Translations under genes and position numbers: made by a program
The notes under the pieces: generated by a model
Database searches by the model: none
Seen by the model: only the letters and a program-made list of their open reading frames with translations
What the model was told of the DNA's origin: nothing
Part shown: positions 14,156 to 54,290 of the stretch, one piece after another
Position numbering within the stretch: the stretch's first letter is position 1
How the letters are laid out: each line of letters begins with the position of its first letter
Origin: Cucumis sativus
Taxonomy: Eukaryota > Streptophyta > Magnoliopsida > Cucurbitales > Cucurbitaceae
DNA length: 64,000 nucleotides
Direction: 5' to 3'
NCBI RefSeq assembly: GCF_000004075.3
Contig: NC_026660.2
Location: forward strand, 29,205,498 to 29,269,497

Positions 14156-14227
14156 GTTGCTGTGGTGTAGTGGTTATCACGTTAGTCTTACACACTAAAG
14201 GTCCCCAGTTCGATCCTGGGCAGCAAC
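14156..14227 (+). tRNA. tRNA-Val (anticodon UAC)
   Basis: The 72-base sequence folds as a full cloverleaf. The acceptor stem is GTTGCTG paired with CAGCAAC. The anticodon stem is TTAGT paired with ACTAA around the loop CTTACAC, with anticodon TAC at 14189-14191. The T arm is CCCAG-TTCGATC-CTGGG. GTGGTGTAGTGGTTATCAC supplies the D arm and A box, and GTTCGATCC the B box. There is no intron. T-runs shortly downstream can serve as the RNA polymerase III terminator. Confidence 0.95.
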
Positions 14228-14491
14228 ATTACATTTCCCTTTATTTTTCTTTTCAAATATCTTATGGTCCAGTATATTTCGAATCTATTTTAATAATTTA
14301 ACCTTTTTTTTCTTTTCCGTCCTAGGAGTTCATGATTGCAGCCTCACCAATAAACAACCACAAGATTCAAAAGTCAGATTTATAGAAAATATAGTGACTG
14401 AAATTATTCATATGGACCAAAATGGTCACCAAATATATAATAAAAATTACTCACAAATGTTCAAAAAATAATTGCTTTTTATACACATCAA

Positions 14492-14563
14492 GTTGCTGTG
14501 GTGTAGTGGTTATCACGTTAGTCTTACACACTAAAGGTCCCCAGTTCGATCCTGGGCAGCAAC
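14492..14563 (+). tRNA. tRNA-Val (anticodon UAC), second copy
   Basis: Identical over all 72 bases to the copy 336 bases upstream, including the TAC anticodon (14525-14527). Both copies are immediately preceded by ATCA-A/TCAAG-like bases and followed by T-rich DNA. The more distant flanks differ, so the repeated unit is little larger than the gene itself. Confidence 0.95.
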
Positions 14564-14592
14564 ACTTTCTTTTCCTTTTTCCCGAAATTTCT

Positions 14593-34696: not shown

Positions 34697-37600
34697 TTAC
34701 AGAATGAGACCATTTTCTGCCTCCATAAATTGGCTGCAGTCAAATCCCTTACTTGAAAACGTCTTGATGAGTCTTGGAAAGATCTTAGCAAGCATAATTT
34801 TGAATCCAGTAGAACTTTGGTCCGGATTTTCGGGTTTTGTTGTTCCACACTGATAGTCACTTCCTACTGGAGTTCCTTCCATGTATGCTCTACAGGCTGC
34901 TAGAATGTGCTGATAACGTCTCCTGAAGTGTTCCTCCACAAGTGCCTCAAAGTGCTGCAACAGGAGAAATAACATTTTGGATGAAGTTATAAATCACAAA
35001 GGACTTTAGCAATCCTACTTTTGATTTTATCCAATGATTCAAATTATATCATAGAAAAGGAACTAGCAAGAGAAATTGTTGCGCCATCAAGATCTTTTCT
35101 GGCACATTCATATGCCACCACATGACATAATTAGTTTGTGTACACCAGTATGATTGCTTGACCCTCAAAAATGATCAATTCTCATTCAATTGCCAAAATT
35201 TGGAAAGTAGAGATAGCTATTATACCTTAGGGGATTTGCTTAGCAAGTACATCATAGATTTGCAGGTAACAAGAAATGCATTCTCGTTGTAGCTCGCGGA
35301 GTTCCTCTCTCCCTCAGCTCTTCCTAATTGAGCATCATATCCTGCCTCGTTATAATATGGCTTCTCATTAAGCACGAGAGCCTGAAGGGAAAGAAGAACT
35401 TGAAGTATAGTAGAACTCCCAGGATTCCACACTTCAGAGCCGCTGCCTGTCCAAGTGTTTAGAAGACTTAAACAGACCCTGCCAGATTCATACAAGTTTG
35501 GGTTGACACGAAGCCCACCAGATATGTAATGCACTAGCTGCAAAAGATATGAAGGAACTTAACAAGAGCCTAAGACTTACAAGAGAAATTTAAATACATT
35601 TTCCAGTTTAAAAAATTCTCGACAAGGGGGCTGAAATTTTGGAAAATATTCCCCTATGTATGTGATAAAGAGAGAAGGTGCCAATCAATAGAAACGTTGT
35701 GCACGGAGCACCTAACATTGTAGAAAAATATTTAATTGGAAGTACAAAGAAATTGATTTATCTGAGGGATTATTAAAATCATGGGAACTTGTAAAATGCA
35801 GAACTTAATGAGAAAGCTTACGGGTGGTATTTGAGGGTACTCTGGAGGAAGATAAATGTCAAAGAAGAAAAGGCCATCATGGTACGGTGTTCCAGGTGCA
35901 CCAATAATGACAGCTCGAATAAGATCCATTCTCTCCTCAAAGACACGAACATAGACAGTTTCTACAAAGATTTTTCTCATTCAGTTGGACAGTTGCATGC
36001 TATCTTCATAGAGCCATAAGAATAAATGATTGAAACTATGGGTCCGTTTGGATTGAAAAAAAATGTTTTTCAAGCAATTCATTTTTGTTTAAACTCTTTT
36101 TCCTAAAAAATGTTTAAAATACACTTAAAAAACTTAAAAATCTAATTTGAGTGGCGTTCAAACACTTTAGTTTTTTTACAAAATAACTTATTTGTTAAAT
36201 AAACACTTGAAAATGTAATTCAAACACACCATAAATTAAAGAAGAAAAAATGCTAACCAGGAAGATTATTTTTAAGAATGCTCCATTCTTGTTGGACCTT
36301 CTTTAGCCATCTTCTACTTGCCTATGAAAAACCAGAAGGAATATGAAAGGGTCATCTTGACTGCTGCAATAAAATGACAGGCCTAAGATTCTAAGGTATG
36401 CTGCTGACCTGAGATAGCATAGGTCCTTTTCCTGATGAAAGAAAATGATGGTCTGGGCAGTCACTGGCCATGTCAAACTGTGTAAGTAGGTCGTAGTTCT
36501 CACTTGAGGTTGAAAATGTTAAATCTTCATTCTTGTGAATTTCTTCAATGTCTAAACTTGTCTCACCAAAATTGTGTAATTTAGCTATTTGTGACATCTC
36601 AGTAGACTGGCTGCAAGTTTGCAGCACTTCTTTCTCGCAGAGTAAATTAATTTCATCCCCACCTTCAAATGATTGAAGGGCTGTAAAAGTGCCTGATAAA
36701 ATTGTTGATCGAACTGATCCAAACAGTGTCGTAAAAATATTAGAGAAAAATTCAACCGCAGCTCGAGAAAAGAAGCAAGTAGTATCCCTTTTGAAATTTT
36801 TACTAGCACCATCACAATTTGGCATATCCTGAGCACAAAAGATGTATTCATCATTTAGCTTAAAATGAACTGAAAACAGATGAACAAAATAATAGAAAAA
36901 CTCAACAATAGAACGATAGATTTAAAGAGGGGTTAACTGAAATAGTTGCGAAGTCTTAAAATGAAAGGTACAAATATGTCGACCAGACTTTGGAAGTACT
37001 GGAAATGGCTTTACCTTTCCTTTCTGGATATTATATGGTTTCAAAGGCTCAATCTGCTCTAGTCTCGACTCTTCAAGGTTTTCACCATTAGGTACAGCGA
37101 TTGGAGAAACTTCATACTTATCAATGGAGAAAATCTCTTGAGGTGAAACCTACAATCAAGTGCAAGGGAACTAATATGATTACAGCAGCCACCTCAATAA
37201 AATCTTATGCATGGATAAATCATTACAACCAAAAGGACCTTCATGGATCAAACTAAAAACTAATGCAAATTATTAGTGAAAACTTCAAATTTTATTGATT
37301 AAAATTCGTAAATGATAAAAAAAATGCTAAATGATGGTGCAATTTCTTAAGACAGTTGCTATTGGACCTAGAAAGTGATTCCCTTAACGAAGCCTATTAT
37401 CTGGTGAAGGAACTAACCATTCAAAGCAAACAAGATAGAGTATTACAGCTATTTCGAATAATGCTACAAATGAATTTATGGATCCTTGGTCCCTGCTACA
37501 TGTATGATGAAACAGTGGAACATACTGAGATTGCAAAAAGAGTAGAGACATTAACTAAAATGAATACCATGCTTATAGAACAATTAGCCCATTTGACCTC

Positions 37601-38982
37601 CACAGCACCATCTTTAAAGCCAGTAACATTACCAATGAAGGATAGGAAGTTGTCCATAATCATGTTATTATTGATGATGCGATTCCCCTCGTTCTGAGCA
37701 GACTCATTCATGGAGATTTCAGAAATTATATTATTTTCATCAGATTGACTGGCAAACTTATCCAATGCCAACCTAAACACAATATCTCCAAGAGAGAAGG
37801 AATAATCTGGGTGCTCAACCAGTTCGTATGCACTCATTGTTTCCTCCACCAACAATCCATCCAGATTGCTACCCTCACTCAAATCATCAGTTCTCAATTG
37901 AACCTTGACAGTTCTTTCCTTTGCATCAACAGCCTGTACAACACCCCATCTTTGATTTACAGACATGCTTGAATCATCACAATTGCCCTTCTCCATAACA
38001 AACTGTTGAGGCCAAAATTCATGAGCATTTGTAGCATTTGCTGGAGTTAAACAAGGGGAATCTAATGCTGTGGAGCGGCTACCATCCTGCCATAGCACAT
38101 CAACTTTAGTTTTTTTCTTCACGATGACACAGATATCCTGAAAGCCTGTTCCACGATATCCGCCATTCATCAAGTCATGAGTAGTAATGAACTTTTCACC
38201 AAAATAATTGTTTTTCTCATCCCCAGGAAAAATACACCAATCACCAAGATTCCAATTTGCATGAGAAAAGCACGACAACAAAGTCAATTCCTTAGCATGT
38301 TGCATACGTGGGGGAGCCGTTAAACTAGAAGAACAACCCATCAAAACTGAGGCAAGCCAATCAACATACACTAGTCCTGCCTCCACAGAACAGACTGTTC
38401 CTTCACAACGGTCATCTTTCCAACCAGATAACCATCCAGGTGGTTTGGAAACATTTGAGAACCGTACTCTTTGTCCAGGGTAATAAGGGTACTGTGAATC
38501 ATCGAGTACATCAACAGATATAGGTAAGAGCTTCTCTTGGTCCACAGCAATGATTTCACACTTGTTCCCATCATCAAAAAGAACACTGACAGAATCAATA
38601 ACCTTGTCTACTCTTCCAATCCATGGCCCATTAACAACGACATCTCCAGCAGAAATGGAACGGATTTTTAATAGATCTTTAGAATTAACATTTTTTATTA
38701 TGGGACCACTGTTTTTCTCCAAATCAACAAGCATGTCAATACCAACAACCTTTCCCATCTGTCCATAAGGATCATTCACAAAACAGACTGCATCTCCAAG
38801 CAGGAATTCCCTCTCAAAGGAAAGGAACTCGTCAATTTTTCCAATTGTTTCCTCTAAGCTTGATAAAATGCAACTAGTTTGGCCATGATAATATTCAGCT
38901 TCCTCTAGGTCATCGCTGCTATCACACTCACTGGAATTCTCCCAATCCGAGTCACTTAGAAACAGGTCCATCAATAGAATGT
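34697..38982 (-). CDS. PHO2: PHO2: ubiquitin-conjugating E2 enzyme UBC24 class
   Basis: Six coding exons: 38982-37568 (ATG at 38971), 37149-37015, 36828-36409, 36321-36258, 35961-35822 and 35537-35226, ending with a seventh at 34954-34697. All phases agree and give 910 aa, against 907 for Arabidopsis PHO2. The long N-terminus starts MDLFLSDSDWENSSE and matches PHO2, including FLSFEREFLLGD, VEAGLVYVDWLAS and WGVVQAVDAKERTVKVQ. The UBC domain lies at about 655-825 with catalytic Cys743 in GRVCLSLLNTW. PHO2 sits on ER/Golgi membranes and drives degradation of phosphate transporters and PHO1. It is silenced by miR399 under phosphate starvation. An upstream in-frame MMLCCIDILL extension is rejected because CTGTATAG/AC is an acceptor at 38983. 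A MITE-like segment lies in the intron at 35962-36257. Confidence 0.97.
36037..36233. mobile_element. MITE-like element in a PHO2 intron
   Basis: The left end TATGGGTCCGTTTGGATT and the inverted right end, read as TATGGTGTGTTTGAATT, form imperfect terminal inverted repeats around about 160 bp of AT-rich DNA. It lies inside the intron between exons 36321-36258 and 35961-35822. It has no ORF. A related segment is suggested at 42610-42795. Confidence 0.6.
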
Positions 38983-39661
38983 CTATACAGCATAACATCA
39001 CAAAATACTATGTTAATAACATGTCTACAAACTCAAATAAAGATGAAAAAAAATTATAAGAAAAAATACCTCAAAGTGACCTCCAAGTAAAGCCTCAGTT
39101 TTAAAACCAGAGTTTGAATCTTCTCGCGCTTCTTTGCCTAAACTTTTAGCAACAGCACTTCCTTGGGTAATTTATAACTTCACAGTGAGCACCAATTCCT
39201 GAAAATTAGATATGGAGAACATATCATTCAGATTATGTCATTGAATTGAGAAGTATCACACAAGAAGAAAATTATCTTCCATGTTTTTCTGCATTACAGT
39301 AATTTTGTCAGCTTTGAATCGTAACATTTTAAGCAGAAGCGCTGAATTGCTCTTAAAGAGCATCATCAACCAAAAAAAAATGTGTGGAAGGAACAGGGAA
39401 GGTCGAATATAGAAGGTACCATTCAATTACCACTTCTTTCGTTAAATCTTCCAACTCCTGGGTAGGATCCAAAAGTAAATTGATTTGTGTAGCACGACTA
39501 ACCAGAGATTGAATATAAAGCTGAAGCAAAAGAAATTGATGATTGTAACAATTGGCTATATCTAACTGCCAAATGAGCAATTTTCAGTAAGTATAAAAAT
39601 GTCATACCTGAATGAATCAATATCCACATTAGGATACCTTCCCTCACAGAAGCAGAGCAGA

Positions 39662-39680
39662 TTGCAAAGAAGATTTGCAA
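39662..39680 (-). promoter_or_regulatory. degenerate miR399-like site
   Basis: The plus strand, TTGCAAAGAAGATTTGCAA, aligns to miR399 with one missing base and several changes. It is close to site 1, inside the same predicted leader exon. It may be a decayed site; function is doubtful. Confidence 0.35.
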
Positions 39681-39710
39681 AGGGATAAACTGAGTCAACA
39701 AGGACCCAAA

Positions 39711-39729
39711 TGCCAAAGGAGATTTGCCC
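39711..39729 (-). promoter_or_regulatory. miR399 target site 1 (nearest the PHO2 ATG)
   Basis: The plus strand reads TGCCAAAGGAGATTTGCCC, identical to the first 19 bases of the miR399a/d/f type. The minus-strand PHO2 transcript would therefore pair perfectly with them, with mismatch only at the 3' end of the microRNA. It lies in the predicted 5'UTR exon. Confidence 0.93.
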
Positions 39730-39918
39730 ACTAAAGATGGACTGAAGTTTCAAGCAGAGGAAACTTCTGAAAATAGTTTCCAGAACTGTTGAAGAATCAA
39801 GAAGCAGCAAAACTGCCAAATAAAGACTTCTCCTTGTTGTTCTGGAACAAAGACGGATGATAACTAAGGAGGTTTTCTTTAATTTTCAAGTTGACTGCAT
39901 CAACCACAAGAACCTATT

Positions 39919-39937
39919 TGCCAAAGGAGATTTGCCC
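39919..39937 (-). promoter_or_regulatory. miR399 target site 2
   Basis: A second exact copy of TGCCAAAGGAGATTTGCCC on the plus strand, 208 bases from site 1. The surrounding bases differ from those at site 1, so only the site itself is conserved. Confidence 0.93.
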
Positions 39938-40018
39938 AACCCGGAGAAAGCTTCAGAATAATTAATAATGCAGAAAATCTAACAGAAGTATGAAACTACT
40001 CTGAGAGCCCAATTCTTA

Positions 40019-40037
40019 TGCCAAAGGAAATTTGCCC
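40019..40037 (-). promoter_or_regulatory. miR399 target site 3 (one mismatch)
   Basis: The plus strand reads TGCCAAAGGAAATTTGCCC, one G-to-A change at microRNA position 11, next to the expected cleavage bond between positions 10 and 11. It lies 100 bases from site 2. Pairing would still be strong, but slicing may be weaker than at sites 1 and 2. Confidence 0.88.
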
Positions 40038-42609
40038 AAAAACGATTTTTTTTTCGCCGAGTTGATCGGCAGTCATTCAGATTTTTCCCACAGAAGGATG
40101 CTAATCAATGTTCATCAAGAATCCCAAAGAAAATAACCCATCCACCACACATATCCAGCAGCTTGATCTAGAATGGAGAAGCCACATGTTGCTTGATTAC
40201 TTCACGATAACTATGTCATCAATTATCCATGGAATCGACAGCCCAACAAATCTATTGCATTCCCTTTTCACCTGCAACACGGTTAGTATTAGTAATATCC
40301 TTTTAAAAACTGATGAAGAGAGAATTAGCATATTGATTAGAAGCCACTGCTTTTGGTTGTTCAAGTACCAGTACGTAAAATTATTCCTCAAACAGATAGA
40401 GAAGAAAATAATATATCCATATGTACCGAACGAACTGCACTTATTACTTTTGGCATTTACTAACCACTACTTCCTATAACGGCGAATGACATGGACAGAC
40501 GTACGAAATAGAATTTGGATGTGATATTCTCTAGAGAAAAAGAACAAAACTCAGCGTTCAATCATGGAAGAAGAAAAGGTCAAAATACTCAGTTAAAAAA
40601 AAACCATCATCATTCTAACGATTTCAATGCGTTTCCCAAAGATTTGTACGGAATACTTCAGGAAACAAACAAGTGTGACTGCACACTCCATCAACAAAAT
40701 TCCAAATGAAAAAGCCAAGAAAGACGCGAAAAAAACAATAAACTCAAAATGAGAAAAGTATCTCTCAACATAAACGAAAACTAATATCCGGATCCTTGAG
40801 AATACCGCAGATGATAAGTTCAGAAGAAGGAAAAAAGGAGGCTAAATGCTTCAACTCCATAAGATAAATACATAGCATGCAAAATAAGAAGAAGAAAATG
40901 AAAACCATAGACAAAGTAAGGTGGCTGTCGAACTTCATATATACCTCTGAGAATTTTTCATGTATGGCCAAAGGAACTTCCGGAATAAAGCGAAAGGAAG
41001 ACACCAGAAAATTGAAGGAACTCAACGGAAAACATAATTCACAGTCACGGCCAGAAAAATCACCTTCTACCAAACGAAAAAAGCACAGGGAAAGGAGAAA
41101 CGGAAGAGGAAGAATTCAGGAAGATGAAGTCGCAGTGATAAAAACCCGGGTATTGGCACCATTTAGGAGGGTGGAAGTCATTGCAGAGTTTGCTTCTCTT
41201 TTTCTTTCCCTCTGCCGCTCGGTTGAAGGTGGCGCGTGGAGGATCCACTACCAAATTGCTTAATATTAAGACCCTTCAATAAAAAGATACCCAACAGAAT
41301 ATGCCAAAAAGATCTCTCGAATAAAGTTGGATGGAATTTAACAAGTTTCTTCCTTTATATTTTATTATTTCAATAGTAATGCTCACGAATACAACAAAAA
41401 CAATAAAACTATTTATAAAATATATCAAAATGATTGGATAGTAATTTTGTTATATTTTATAGACAATTTCACTCCAGTTTTATTTTTTATAATGTATCAA
41501 AATTTTGCTCAATTTGAAAAAATGACACAACTATACCATTTGCCACGACTTTCTTCACTCCATTTGTTTAGTTTATTCTCCTCACCCATCTTCCTATCTC
41601 TTTCCAATTAGAGTCTTTTGTGGCACAGATATATAATACAATTATGTGATTTAGATAATTCTGATATTTAAGATTAGATTAGTTTGTTATTTAATCAAAT
41701 AATAATGCATGGAGTTTAAAATTCAGGGTTTAGTATTTGACTCTGTCTCACTAAGTTAGTAGGTTGACATAAATAGGGTCCTATGTATCTTATTACATAA
41801 GGTGGTCAACCCCATAATAAAGTTCAAATTAGTATCTAAACATCAGACTTTGATTGGAACAATTGTGGTTTTGATATATATTTTTAAAATTATTAAATCA
41901 AAACCCACATGAACATGGTATATAACTCTTTTTTATCAAAAATGAGTTTAAGGTTGTAAAATTAAACTTAAGTAGATTTAAAATGATTATAGATATGTTT
42001 TAAGATTTTTTTTAAATATTGCACAGTTGATCTTCATCATCTCAAAATCACTTTCTAATATGCAAAATATCATATCTAAAATTTAAAGTATTTTTGTTTA
42101 GTGATTCAATAACGAAATCTTATAGTTCCGTACAAGTCTATAGTTGTTGACTTGTAATTGAAACAAAAAGTGATGAGATAGATAAAAGAAGAAATTATTT
42201 TTGTTGCGTAGAGAATCCATACAAAAAAAGAAGATTAGATGTAGAAAAGAAAAATTAGTTTTTAATTTGATAAGTTGAAGAATCTCAACTATGAACACTA
42301 TGATCGCTATTACATTATATATATATATATGATAACAATCGTTATCATAACTTAATATTGGGTAGATAGGAATAATTCAACACGATTACAAAAAGGGAAG
42401 AATAATGTGTTAGGGCATGCTGATATTCTGATATTTAGGCAGTTTGGCCTACTAATTAGAATCTTCTGATGCCTATTCTAAACTTTTATTACTGTTTTTT
42501 TTTTTCTTTCGCTTTTATGTTTTCTTAAAAAGGAAAAAGATAAGGAGAAAATATTGCTTATAGTTTAGAAAGAGAAATTTGAAGGAATAAACTTAAAAGA
42601 AAACAAGTT

Positions 42610-51446: not shown

Positions 51447-53264
51447 TCACCAATAATCAAGACAAGAACATGAACCATCTTTGAAGTGGTGAAAACGAAA
51501 TTTATCCCTAACAATTATTTCTCTATCAGCAATAATAGAGATGTGTTTAATAGCTGAATGGCAATCCTCGCATATTCGAAGGTTCTTTACAATTCTAATA
51601 GTCTCACCTTGATTGGTTTTAAGTAAACCAAATGCTAGTGCAAGCTTCTCACTGTGATACCTAAGGGCATAATCCCTTTCTTCTTCTTCCAAATCATGCA
51701 TTAAGGACTCCGGTGCTGGTACATAGCCTGATTCACTACATCGACACATTAATTCATCTAAATACCTATATATAGTGTTTGTCTGAGGATGAGACTTGTC
51801 ACCCATGCTAAACAAATAGGTCTTTCGATTGATCTCTATGGTGCTATAGCCTACTTGCTTCTTTAGGCGTCGTCTGGTCATCATATTTCGTACCATCTCC
51901 ACTCGATCCATCCTACCGGCCAATGCATATATGTTAGAAAGCATTACATAATGGCCAGGATTTTCTGGCTCAACTGATAAAACATGTTCTGCAACCTTAA
52001 CTCCAAGGTCAAAATTTCTATGCATTCTACAGGCCCCGAGCATTGAAGTCCAAACCGCCGGGCCTGGCTCCTTGGGAATAAACTTTTTGATAAATTGATA
52101 AGCATCGTTGAGCAATCCAGCACGCCCAAACATATCTACCATGCAGACATTATGTTCTACTCCTGGAACTAACCCATATGCTTCCTTCATGCTCGAAAAT
52201 ACCCGACGACCATCATCAATCAACCCTGAATGAGCACATGCAGACAAGACTGCAACGAATGTAATATTGTTAGGACGAGGACCATAAGCTCTCATTTCAG
52301 TAAAAAGCTCCATTGCTTGCCTACCGTAGCCATGCATGCCGTACCCTGAAATCATGGCTGTCCAGGTGACAACATTCCTTTCTTTCATGGAGTCAAAAAC
52401 TTCCCGCGCTTTGCTTACATTCCCACATCTAGTGTACATGTTAATCAAAGAAGTACCAAGAACCACGTTGAGATCAAATCCATTACCATCAGCATAATCA
52501 TGCAACCAGCAACCGAAATCAAGCGCCCCTAGCTGAGAACAGGAAGACAATAAGCTCACTATTGTTGCTGAATCCGGTTGAAAACCCGACTCCATCATCA
52601 GATGAAATAAACCAATTGATTCTTGCGGGAGTCCATTTTGGTCATACCCTGATATAAGTGAGTTCCAAGCTATAATTGTTCTTTGTGGCATTGCATCAAA
52701 CACCTTCTTGGCAACTTTCATATCACTAGCTTTAGCATAGAGAGCAATTAAAGCAGCCTGAACATACATATCAGAACCATACCCACAAACCATAACGTGA
52801 GAATGAATTTCTTTACCCAACCTTAGAGCTGAAAGATCCGCACAGGCTTTAATCACAGACGTAAAGGTGTAATTCGACTGGGGAGCACCTGAGAAAAGCA
52901 TGCGACGGTAAAACAAGACAGTATCAATAGAGAAACCGAACTTGGAAGTCACTTTGAGGAGGGAATCAAACAGGAAAGAATCCGGATTAGGCACAGTGGG
53001 GAACAATCGTCGAGCATAGGTGATTGAACCAGCGGTACAAACCAGAGAAATAAGCTTAGTGAGGAGGGATCGACTTCTATGGAGTCCGGAAACGATGATA
53101 TGGGCATGAACTTGTTGAAGGTTTCTGAGACGGGGACCTGATCGAAGAAGCGCTTCGTGGACAGGAGAATGCGATTGCGTGTCAAAATTGCGAGTTACAG
53201 GATGTTGAAATGCAAGTTGTTGGGTTTGCAGTTTAATTTTGTTCATAGTTGGGTTTCTATCCAA
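51447..53264 (-). CDS. pentatricopeptide repeat protein, PLS class with E and DYW domains (At2g33760-like)
   Basis: One uninterrupted exon of 605 aa, as usual for PPR genes. From about residue 45 come tandem PPR motifs, recognisable by TFTSVIKACADLSALRLGKE, VAKKVFDAMPQRTIIAWNSL and ITFVAVLSACAHSGLIDDG. An E/E+ region follows, and the last 90 or so residues form a DYW cytidine-deaminase domain. Its zinc and catalytic residues are present in YHSEKLALAFGLL and CEDCH, and it ends exactly in LDYW. DYW proteins edit specific C residues to U in mitochondrial or plastid transcripts; the target cannot be read from sequence. It resembles Arabidopsis At2g33760 along its length. The start is the first ATG; a second in-frame Met is six codons later. 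Confidence 0.95.
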   Translation of the reverse strand: MDRNPTMNKIKLQTQQLAFQHPVTRNFDTQSHSPVHEALLRSGPRLRNLQQVHAHIIVSGLHRSRSLLTKLISLVCTAGSITYARRLFPTVPNPDSFLFDSLLKVTSKFGFSIDTVLFYRRMLFSGAPQSNYTFTSVIKACADLSALRLGKEIHSHVMVCGYGSDMYVQAALIALYAKASDMKVAKKVFDAMPQRTIIAWNSLISGYDQNGLPQESIGLFHLMMESGFQPDSATIVSLLSSCSQLGALDFGCWLHDYADGNGFDLNVVLGTSLINMYTRCGNVSKAREVFDSMKERNVVTWTAMISGYGMHGYGRQAMELFTEMRAYGPRPNNITFVAVLSACAHSGLIDDGRRVFSSMKEAYGLVPGVEHNVCMVDMFGRAGLLNDAYQFIKKFIPKEPGPAVWTSMLGACRMHRNFDLGVKVAEHVLSVEPENPGHYVMLSNIYALAGRMDRVEMVRNMMTRRRLKKQVGYSTIEINRKTYLFSMGDKSHPQTNTIYRYLDELMCRCSESGYVPAPESLMHDLEEEERDYALRYHSEKLALAFGLLKTNQGETIRIVKNLRICEDCHSAIKHISIIADREIIVRDKFRFHHFKDGSCSCLDYW

Positions 53265-54290
53265 TGGCTTTGCAGTTGGCAGTAAGAGGGGAAATCATTC
53301 AAACTACTAGAAATTGGAACAAAAATTGATGATTATGCCCAAAACTACAGCCGATGAAGTAGTAGTCTTTACAGTTCCAGTTCCTTCAGTTGAAGCTCCA
53401 AAATCCAAAGCGTCGCCATTAGTGTAAGTTGTTGTTGCTTCCTTTCGTCGTCCTCGGCATTCAGCTTGTTGCCAACGGCCAAAAATCCCATGCCTCCTAA
53501 ATACGAAAGTTCGATTCATTTCGCGGGATTGATATAATTAAAATAAGTTGAGAGTTATGCAAATATGGCGGTATGATTTTCATTATTAGGGATGGTCTTT
53601 TCCAAGTTGTTATAAACAATTTAACTTCCTTAGTAATTTCAATTTTTATGTTTTATATATATATATTTATGAGAAACTCTATTTTCTTATCTTAATATGT
53701 TTTTCACATTGATCAAATTTACAACTCTGTCACTCAGCATACAAATTTATTGACTACAATATATAAACTCTAGTTAATGGATCAAACTCCCCAATGTATT
53801 TTGTAGATATACACAATTCTTTCACCTCAATGATTGAACTTTCTCTAAACACTTCTCCTCCCGCTTCCCATTATGTATACACTGATGGACCAAGTAATTG
53901 CCTCGCTCCAACTCAGTTCATCTCGAATATCGACAACAGATACGACAACAAATGTAGGCCTTCAAATATATATCTTAGAGAGAATTATTGACGCTATCTT
54001 GATTGGGTGAAGTGACGAAATCCTTACATTTGTGTGTGAAGGAGAGAGATGCATTTAAAAAAATGTTGAACAAATGTTTTATCCGTTTAATTGTAAATTT
54101 GGTTTGTATTAGCTCATCGAATTTAATTGTTTATCCATTTGAATGTTTGCAAATAAAACAAAAAAGTTAACAAATTTATAAATATAATAAAATTTTACAA
54201 GTATATATATTTTTGAAGGCTCATTTAGTCGATCTAAATATAAATTTGGGCTGACCCATAATTATATCTAATCTAATGAATAAAGAAATA

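Follow-up and report, generated by a model that had tools for sequence, protein, structure and literature searches.

Introduction

Whether the leader of the cucumber PHO2 gene responds to the microRNA miR399 as it does in other plants, or whether the unequal quality of its target sites adds a graded form of control, is the question raised by a 64-kb window of the cucumber genome (the whole stretch of DNA analyzed, 64,000 nucleotides) in which three miR399-complementary stretches lie close together. In the circuit as described in the literature, miR399 increases when phosphate falls, the PHO2 leader is cut and phosphate transporters persist (PMC11062440). Plants keep their phosphate balance by means of this module, and an exact inventory of the sites helps to interpret degradome data or natural variants of cucumber.

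The host gene and its leader

The first coding stretch of the gene concerned, at 37496–38971 on the minus strand, gave Pfam matches to tSH3-B_UBE2O (7.4e-38) and SH3-B_UBE2O (6.3e-16), and parts of a UQ_con domain are found in two further open reading frames (Table 1). The occurrence of UBE2O-type domains together with UQ_con on the minus strand points to an E2 enzyme of the PHO2/UBC24 type, and judged by these domains the gene is most likely cucumber PHO2. One other relative was found in the genome, which matches in two stretches at 50% and 40% identity; it is located on contig C2, which holds none of the at least 15 miR399-like places recovered by a genome-wide pattern scan.

All three sites are positioned upstream of the start codon, and the edges of the exon that surrounds them are predictions. 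The initial annotation had placed the sites together in one 5′ UTR exon of 664 bases. The AG/GT edges of this segment agree with that proposal, as does its likeness to the second 5′ UTR exon of bean, on account of which we regard it as likely that the segment indeed serves as the second 5′ UTR exon; the splice-site scores are less favorable. In a crude scan the acceptor at 40271 obtained 13 points, as compared to 14–16 for six acceptor-like strings inside the exon and 17 for an upstream one at 40530, and use of an acceptor-like string at 39841 would leave out sites 1 and 2. A shorter spliced form of PHO2 that lacks the miR399 sites is described for Arabidopsis (PMC10319397, citing Scheible et al.). 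Nine of the 10 upstream AUGs in the predicted cucumber exon start short open reading frames of 2–28 codons that end within it.

Elsewhere in the window, the plus strand carries two tRNA genes (14156–14228 and 14492–14564; Rfam) that are identical in sequence and in score and lie at a distance of 336 bases. The minus strand has a 615-aa open reading frame adjoining PHO2 (51450–53294), which by eye looks PPR-like and may resemble the PPR gene located beside PHO2 in Arabidopsis.

Table 1 Features of the PHO2 locus and of the C6 interval between PHO2 and the MIR399 cluster (cuts are given in plus-strand coordinates)
Feature	Position	Strand	Remarks
PHO2/UBC24, first coding stretch	37496..38971	-	ATG at 38971; starts MDLFLSDSDW; low coordinate is the open-frame end
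PHO2, UQ_con exons	35220..35980	-	UQ_con parts in two ORFs, 35732-35980 and 35220-35558
Predicted 5′ UTR exon 2, with all sites	39608..40271	-	664 nt; AG/GT edges; 10 upstream AUGs; likeness to bean exon 2
Possible 5′ UTR exon 1	40945..41200	-	Candidate donor 40945 or 41064 (splice-site scan); 41200 is a guess
miR399 site 1, 5′-most in the mRNA	40019..40039	-	TTGGGCAAATTTCCTTTGGCA; G:U opposite miRNA position 11; predicted cut 40029/40028
miR399 site 2	39919..39939	-	miRNA positions 1-19 fully paired (U13 isoform); predicted cut 39929/39928
miR399 site 3	39711..39731	-	miRNA positions 1-19 fully paired (U13 isoform); predicted cut 39721/39720
Possible fourth miR399 site, decayed	39662..39682	-	G:U wobble at miRNA position 9; mismatches toward the 3′ end and at positions 2 and 3
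SBP gene (SPL3-type)	C6:29.309 Mb		Between PHO2 and MIR399; miR156-type site differing from the motif used at 2 positions
ARF gene (ARF3/ETT-type)	C6:29.4406 Mb		Between PHO2 and MIR399; two perfect tasiARF sites
API5 stretch	C6:29.5155-29.5229 Mb		Between PHO2 and MIR399; 9/9 genome API5 matches

Target sites and their pairing with miR399

A scan of the window yielded three 21-mers complementary to miR399, with steps of 208 and 100 bases, which confirms the cluster and the spacing that had been proposed. The core of that proposal, miR399 sites in the PHO2 5′ UTR, is right as well: with U13 isoforms of the microRNA, the sites score 1.0–2.5 (G:U pairs counted as 0.5, mismatches as 1 and the weight doubled at miRNA positions 2–13), which amounts to near-perfect complementarity on the sense strand of PHO2. 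With the 399f-type sequence, scores of 1.0, 1.5 and 2.0 were obtained for sites 2, 3 and 1, respectively, and no 21-mer beyond these three, on either strand of the whole 64-kb window, scored at least as well as 6. The target strand is the minus strand, the same as that of PHO2, and the wobble site comes first in the mRNA, followed by site 2 and then site 3.

Read on the plus strand, the sequence is that of miR399, and the letters displayed in the initial annotation thus represent the microRNA sequence and not the target. Three miR399-like stretches on one strand, in combination with the antisense transcripts reported at UBC24 in Arabidopsis (PMC2664332), might bring to mind a microRNA gene in antisense orientation. 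Such a gene is exceedingly improbable, however, since the Rfam MIR399 model finds nothing at gathering score anywhere in the 64-kb window and the gene on the minus strand is PHO2.

Two of the sites had been described as exact matches over 19 bases. This holds only for the U13 isoform, which is encoded by two of the eight MIR399 hairpins in the genome; position 13 is mismatched in the A13 and G13 isoforms, and both this position and position 8 in the products of two e-like hairpins. The remaining site was thought to carry a mismatch opposite the slicing position. It does deviate at miRNA position 11, but the mismatch has to be rejected, since a target U faces G11 of the microRNA and forms a G:U wobble, for which the penalty is mild. 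The predicted duplex energies of sites 1, 2 and 3 are −34.7, −37.3 and −37.1 kcal/mol, so that the wobble costs about 2.6 of 37 kcal/mol. Site 1 is otherwise very similar to site 2 (20 of 21 bases identical), and the pairing is unbroken in all three sites, with no central bulge opposite miRNA positions 10–11.

The absence of a bulge bears on the possibility that site 1 acts by target mimicry. Four motifs of the IPS1/At4 type were found in the genome, three on contig C3 (C3:30252936, C3:30261148 and C3:30342953, together spanning about 90 kb) and one at C6:23174447. Whereas these share complementarity to miR399 with the PHO2 sites, they have three extra bases inserted behind position 10 and by their letters fit the G13 isoform, unlike the PHO2 sites, which pair continuously and fit U13. 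Mimicry by site 1 was rejected on this basis.

The three sites are far above chance expectation. At cut-offs of 2.5, 4, 6, 7.5 and 8.5, the real window contains 3, 3, 3, 5 and 10 matches, as compared to means of 0, 0, 0.075, 0.65 and 2.7 in 40 simulated windows (Markov-1). Such simulations underestimate the background of weak matches, and the comparison is therefore applied to the strong sites only. Across the 226.6-Mb genome, a 19-base pattern with at most two mismatches occurs at no fewer than 15 places. These comprise the three sites in PHO2, eight MIR399 hairpins, one orphan MIR399-like stretch in the C6 cluster, two copies of TGCTAAAGGAGATTTACCC, of which the folds are unlike a simple hairpin, and one near-palindrome. 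The simulations and the genome-wide count together rule out a chance origin of the three sites. Candidates for a further site on the minus strand between 38960 and 41320, with next best scores of 9.5 (41068–41088) and 10 (40966–40986 and 40122–40142), were taken as chance.

Pairing strength is not the only factor that may set the rank order, since the predicted costs of opening the sites also differ. Sites 1, 2 and 3 required 4.7, 4.9 and 7.5 kcal/mol in one of three folding settings, and the other two settings gave 5.4, 5.5 and 8.0, and 4.4, 5.0 and 5.2 kcal/mol. The accessibility order is thus unstable, with site 3 clearly less open in two settings and at 5.2 kcal/mol in the third. From these models, site 2 is predicted to be the strongest, being perfectly paired and fairly open; site 3 is perfectly paired but predicted to be clearly less open in two of the three settings, and site 1 would be slightly weakened by its wobble, a rank order that we infer.

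Comparison with other plants

The PHO2/UBC24 leaders of Arabidopsis (AT2G33770), bean, Medicago, rice and N. benthamiana belong to the same gene family, are targeted by the same microRNA, and likewise contain several 5′ UTR sites of unequal pairing. Five sites each were described for Arabidopsis (PMC2268993), Medicago, where central or 3′ mismatches vary by site (PMC10319397), and rice (PMC9009289), and four for N. benthamiana (PMC6296076). Cleavage in Arabidopsis falls mainly at sites 2 and 3 (PMC8516643, citing Allen et al.). The cucumber leader has three good sites and one that is possibly decayed, as compared to four or five in the other plants, and differs from the known clusters by the G:U pair at miRNA position 11 of site 1.

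The possible fourth site, which had escaped the initial annotation, reads CTTTGCAAATCTTCTTTGCAA on the minus strand; 15 of its 21 positions are Watson–Crick paired and it scores 7.5. It is located 49 bases from site 3, close to the corresponding step of 54 in bean. In bean, the five sites in exon 2 are found at 1084, 1175, 1345, 1399 and 1453 (PMC3645745), giving steps of 91, 170, 54 and 54, to be compared with 100, 208 and 49 in cucumber if the last is counted. The spacing resembles that of bean sites 1–4, and on this basis the wobble site would correspond to bean site 1, and the two perfect sites to bean sites 2 and 3. When the remainder of the exon, with the three sites removed, was subjected to dinucleotide shuffling, 27 of 2000 shuffles equaled the score of this stretch. 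Its assignment as a decayed fourth site is suggestive, and as a target it is probably non-functional.

A weakened site 1 next to a decayed site 4 could reflect neutral drift under low constraint, an explanation that is compatible with ordinary regulation by miR399 and that we consider somewhat more probable than its opposite. The number of sites is variable, with three good ones here, four in N. benthamiana, and five in bean, Medicago, rice and Arabidopsis, bean genotypes differ at site 1 (PMC3645745), and the decayed-looking site is near the expected spacing. On the other hand, the 20 bases that site 1 shares with site 2 suggest some constraint, and the shuffling places the decayed site only moderately beyond chance.

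Cleavage in cucumber

Cleavage by miR399 in cucumber was reported in a fruit degradome study, in which cme-miR399c cuts XM_011659907.1 at position 473 and XM_004134656.2 at position 714 (PMC6769560, Table 3). Both records are annotated as probable ubiquitin-conjugating enzyme E2 24 (UBC24), and the primers given in that paper fit the U13 sequence ending in GCCCGG. We assume that the two records derive from the PHO2 gene described here, since none of the at least 15 miR399-like places lies on C2, where the single further relative was found. To match positions 473 and 714, the number of bases needed upstream of the predicted exon 2 would be 229 and 470 for site 1, 129 and 370 for site 2, and −79 and 162 for site 3. 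Site 3 at position 473 is thus impossible, and the degradome positions could fit more than one site.

In the examined text of three other cucumber degradome studies (PMC3316546, PMC5379521 and PMC6238408), cleavage of PHO2 by miR399 was not seen, and the word ubiquitin does not occur in the examined text of the latter two. The first of these papers gives 14 and 25 reads for miR399. The absence of PHO2 from these texts says little, since in N. benthamiana the degradome missed PHO2 and 5′ RACE confirmed its cleavage (PMC6296076).

Regulatory consequences

The cucumber leader is very probably part of an ordinary miR399–PHO2 switch, with three redundant, additive cutting sites. Phosphate starvation would induce miR399, as published for other plants and seen, for example, in pumpkin phloem sap (PMC2268993); AGO-bound miR399 would pair with up to three of the 5′ UTR sites, and the target would be cut between the two bases that face miRNA positions 10 and 11. 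A single cut would suffice to remove the cap and cause loss of the PHO2 message, after which phosphate transporters would escape PHO2-dependent degradation. Since any single cut should destroy the message, the cutting rates of the sites would add, and with additive rates a slightly weaker site would change the total little.

The unequal sites had been proposed to give graded silencing of PHO2, which fares less well: the wobble site should add little beside two perfect sites when any cut suffices, and graded silencing would not follow from one wobble site. For such a graded response, site 1 would have to be bound but poorly cut, acting as a brake or as a site of translational repression. Partial cleavage does occur in other plants. 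In N. benthamiana, two of the four PHO2 sites were confirmed to be cut, and the same paper counts two of five in barley and four of five in Arabidopsis (PMC6296076). The weaker site 1 of bean was cut less in one genotype (PMC3645745), and the wobble in cucumber lowers the strength of the duplex by the 2.6 kcal/mol that separate site 1 from site 2. However, a G:U pair at position 11 is neither a mismatch nor a bulge, and site 1 does not resemble the mimic motifs of this genome with their 3-base insertion. Its score of 2.0–2.5 with U13 isoforms is well under the limit of 5 used for bean, albeit with different scoring weights (PMC3645745), and decay of the message should be governed mainly by its two perfect sites. 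A braking function of site 1 is therefore unlikely.

The ordinary switch with additive sites is a known module without a new mechanism, and neither the observation nor its interpretation is new in kind. The notion that unequal site strength provides fine control is already in print (PMC6296076; PMC3645745), the former paper proposing that partial cleavage and differences in affinity may give greater control of transcript stability.

MIR399 genes and their linkage to PHO2

The eight MIR399 hairpins are distributed over contigs C1 (two), C5 (three) and C6 (three), their folds each being the best of seven window lengths. At two of five MIR399 loci examined, the Rfam MIR399 model scored above the gathering score. 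The hairpin at C6:29706557 contains exact copies of both published csa-miR399 arms, GGGCGGATCTTTTTTGGCAGG and TGCCAAAAGAGACTTGCCCTG (PMC6238408), at locus offsets 1453 and 1500, which points to cucumber or a very close relative as the most likely source of the sequence.

The C6 cluster (29.7006–29.7078 Mb) is separated from PHO2, located on the same contig at 29.245 Mb, by 455 kb (interval C6:29245208–29707792). The order on C6 is PHO2, an SBP gene, an ARF gene, API5 and the MIR399 cluster (Table 1); we take the two tasiARF sites of the ARF gene to be a feature of ARF3/ETT. In Arabidopsis, the gene numbers are AT2G33770 for PHO2, AT2G33810 for SPL3 and AT2G34202 for miR399d, and AT2G33860 for ARF3 and AT2G34040 for API5. 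By these numbers, the Arabidopsis order seems to fit the cucumber order.

The markers were picked with the Arabidopsis order in view, and three of the five marker families fall in the interval. The other two, NAT permease and SecY, which we assume to be close neighbors of Arabidopsis MIR399d-f, gave 11 and 15 matches, respectively, none of which lies within the interval or close to the MIR399 cluster, and none of the Arabidopsis neighbors was recognized by eye among the open reading frames, listed in shortened form, of the 60 kb from 29670001 to 29730000. The rough chance of a family member falling in the interval is 3.0% for SBP (15 genes), 3.6% for ARF (taking 18 genes) and 0.2% for API5, and the rough chance that any of four MIR399 locations would be that near PHO2 is 1.6%.

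We consider it quite probable that the linkage of PHO2 and MIR399 is shared by descent and was already present in the common ancestor of the two species. That it was kept over this time by selection, with regulator and target being inherited together, is speculative and improbable. Among the literature matches listed, no title or abstract opening dealt with this linkage; it may be a new observation, although it could easily have been published already. Provided that further species show it too, it would offer a simple case for asking why a microRNA cluster and its main target stay together.

The C6 cluster also contains an orphan MIR399-like mature sequence, TGCCAAAGGAGATTTGCCTAC, at C6:29707774–29707792 on the minus strand. 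No partner arm was found within 800 bases on either side, the best duplex reaching −13.6; a true hairpin, for which only the upstream side was searched, reached −27.3. The orphan is probably a broken MIR399 copy or, alternatively, a target-like site on the plus strand.
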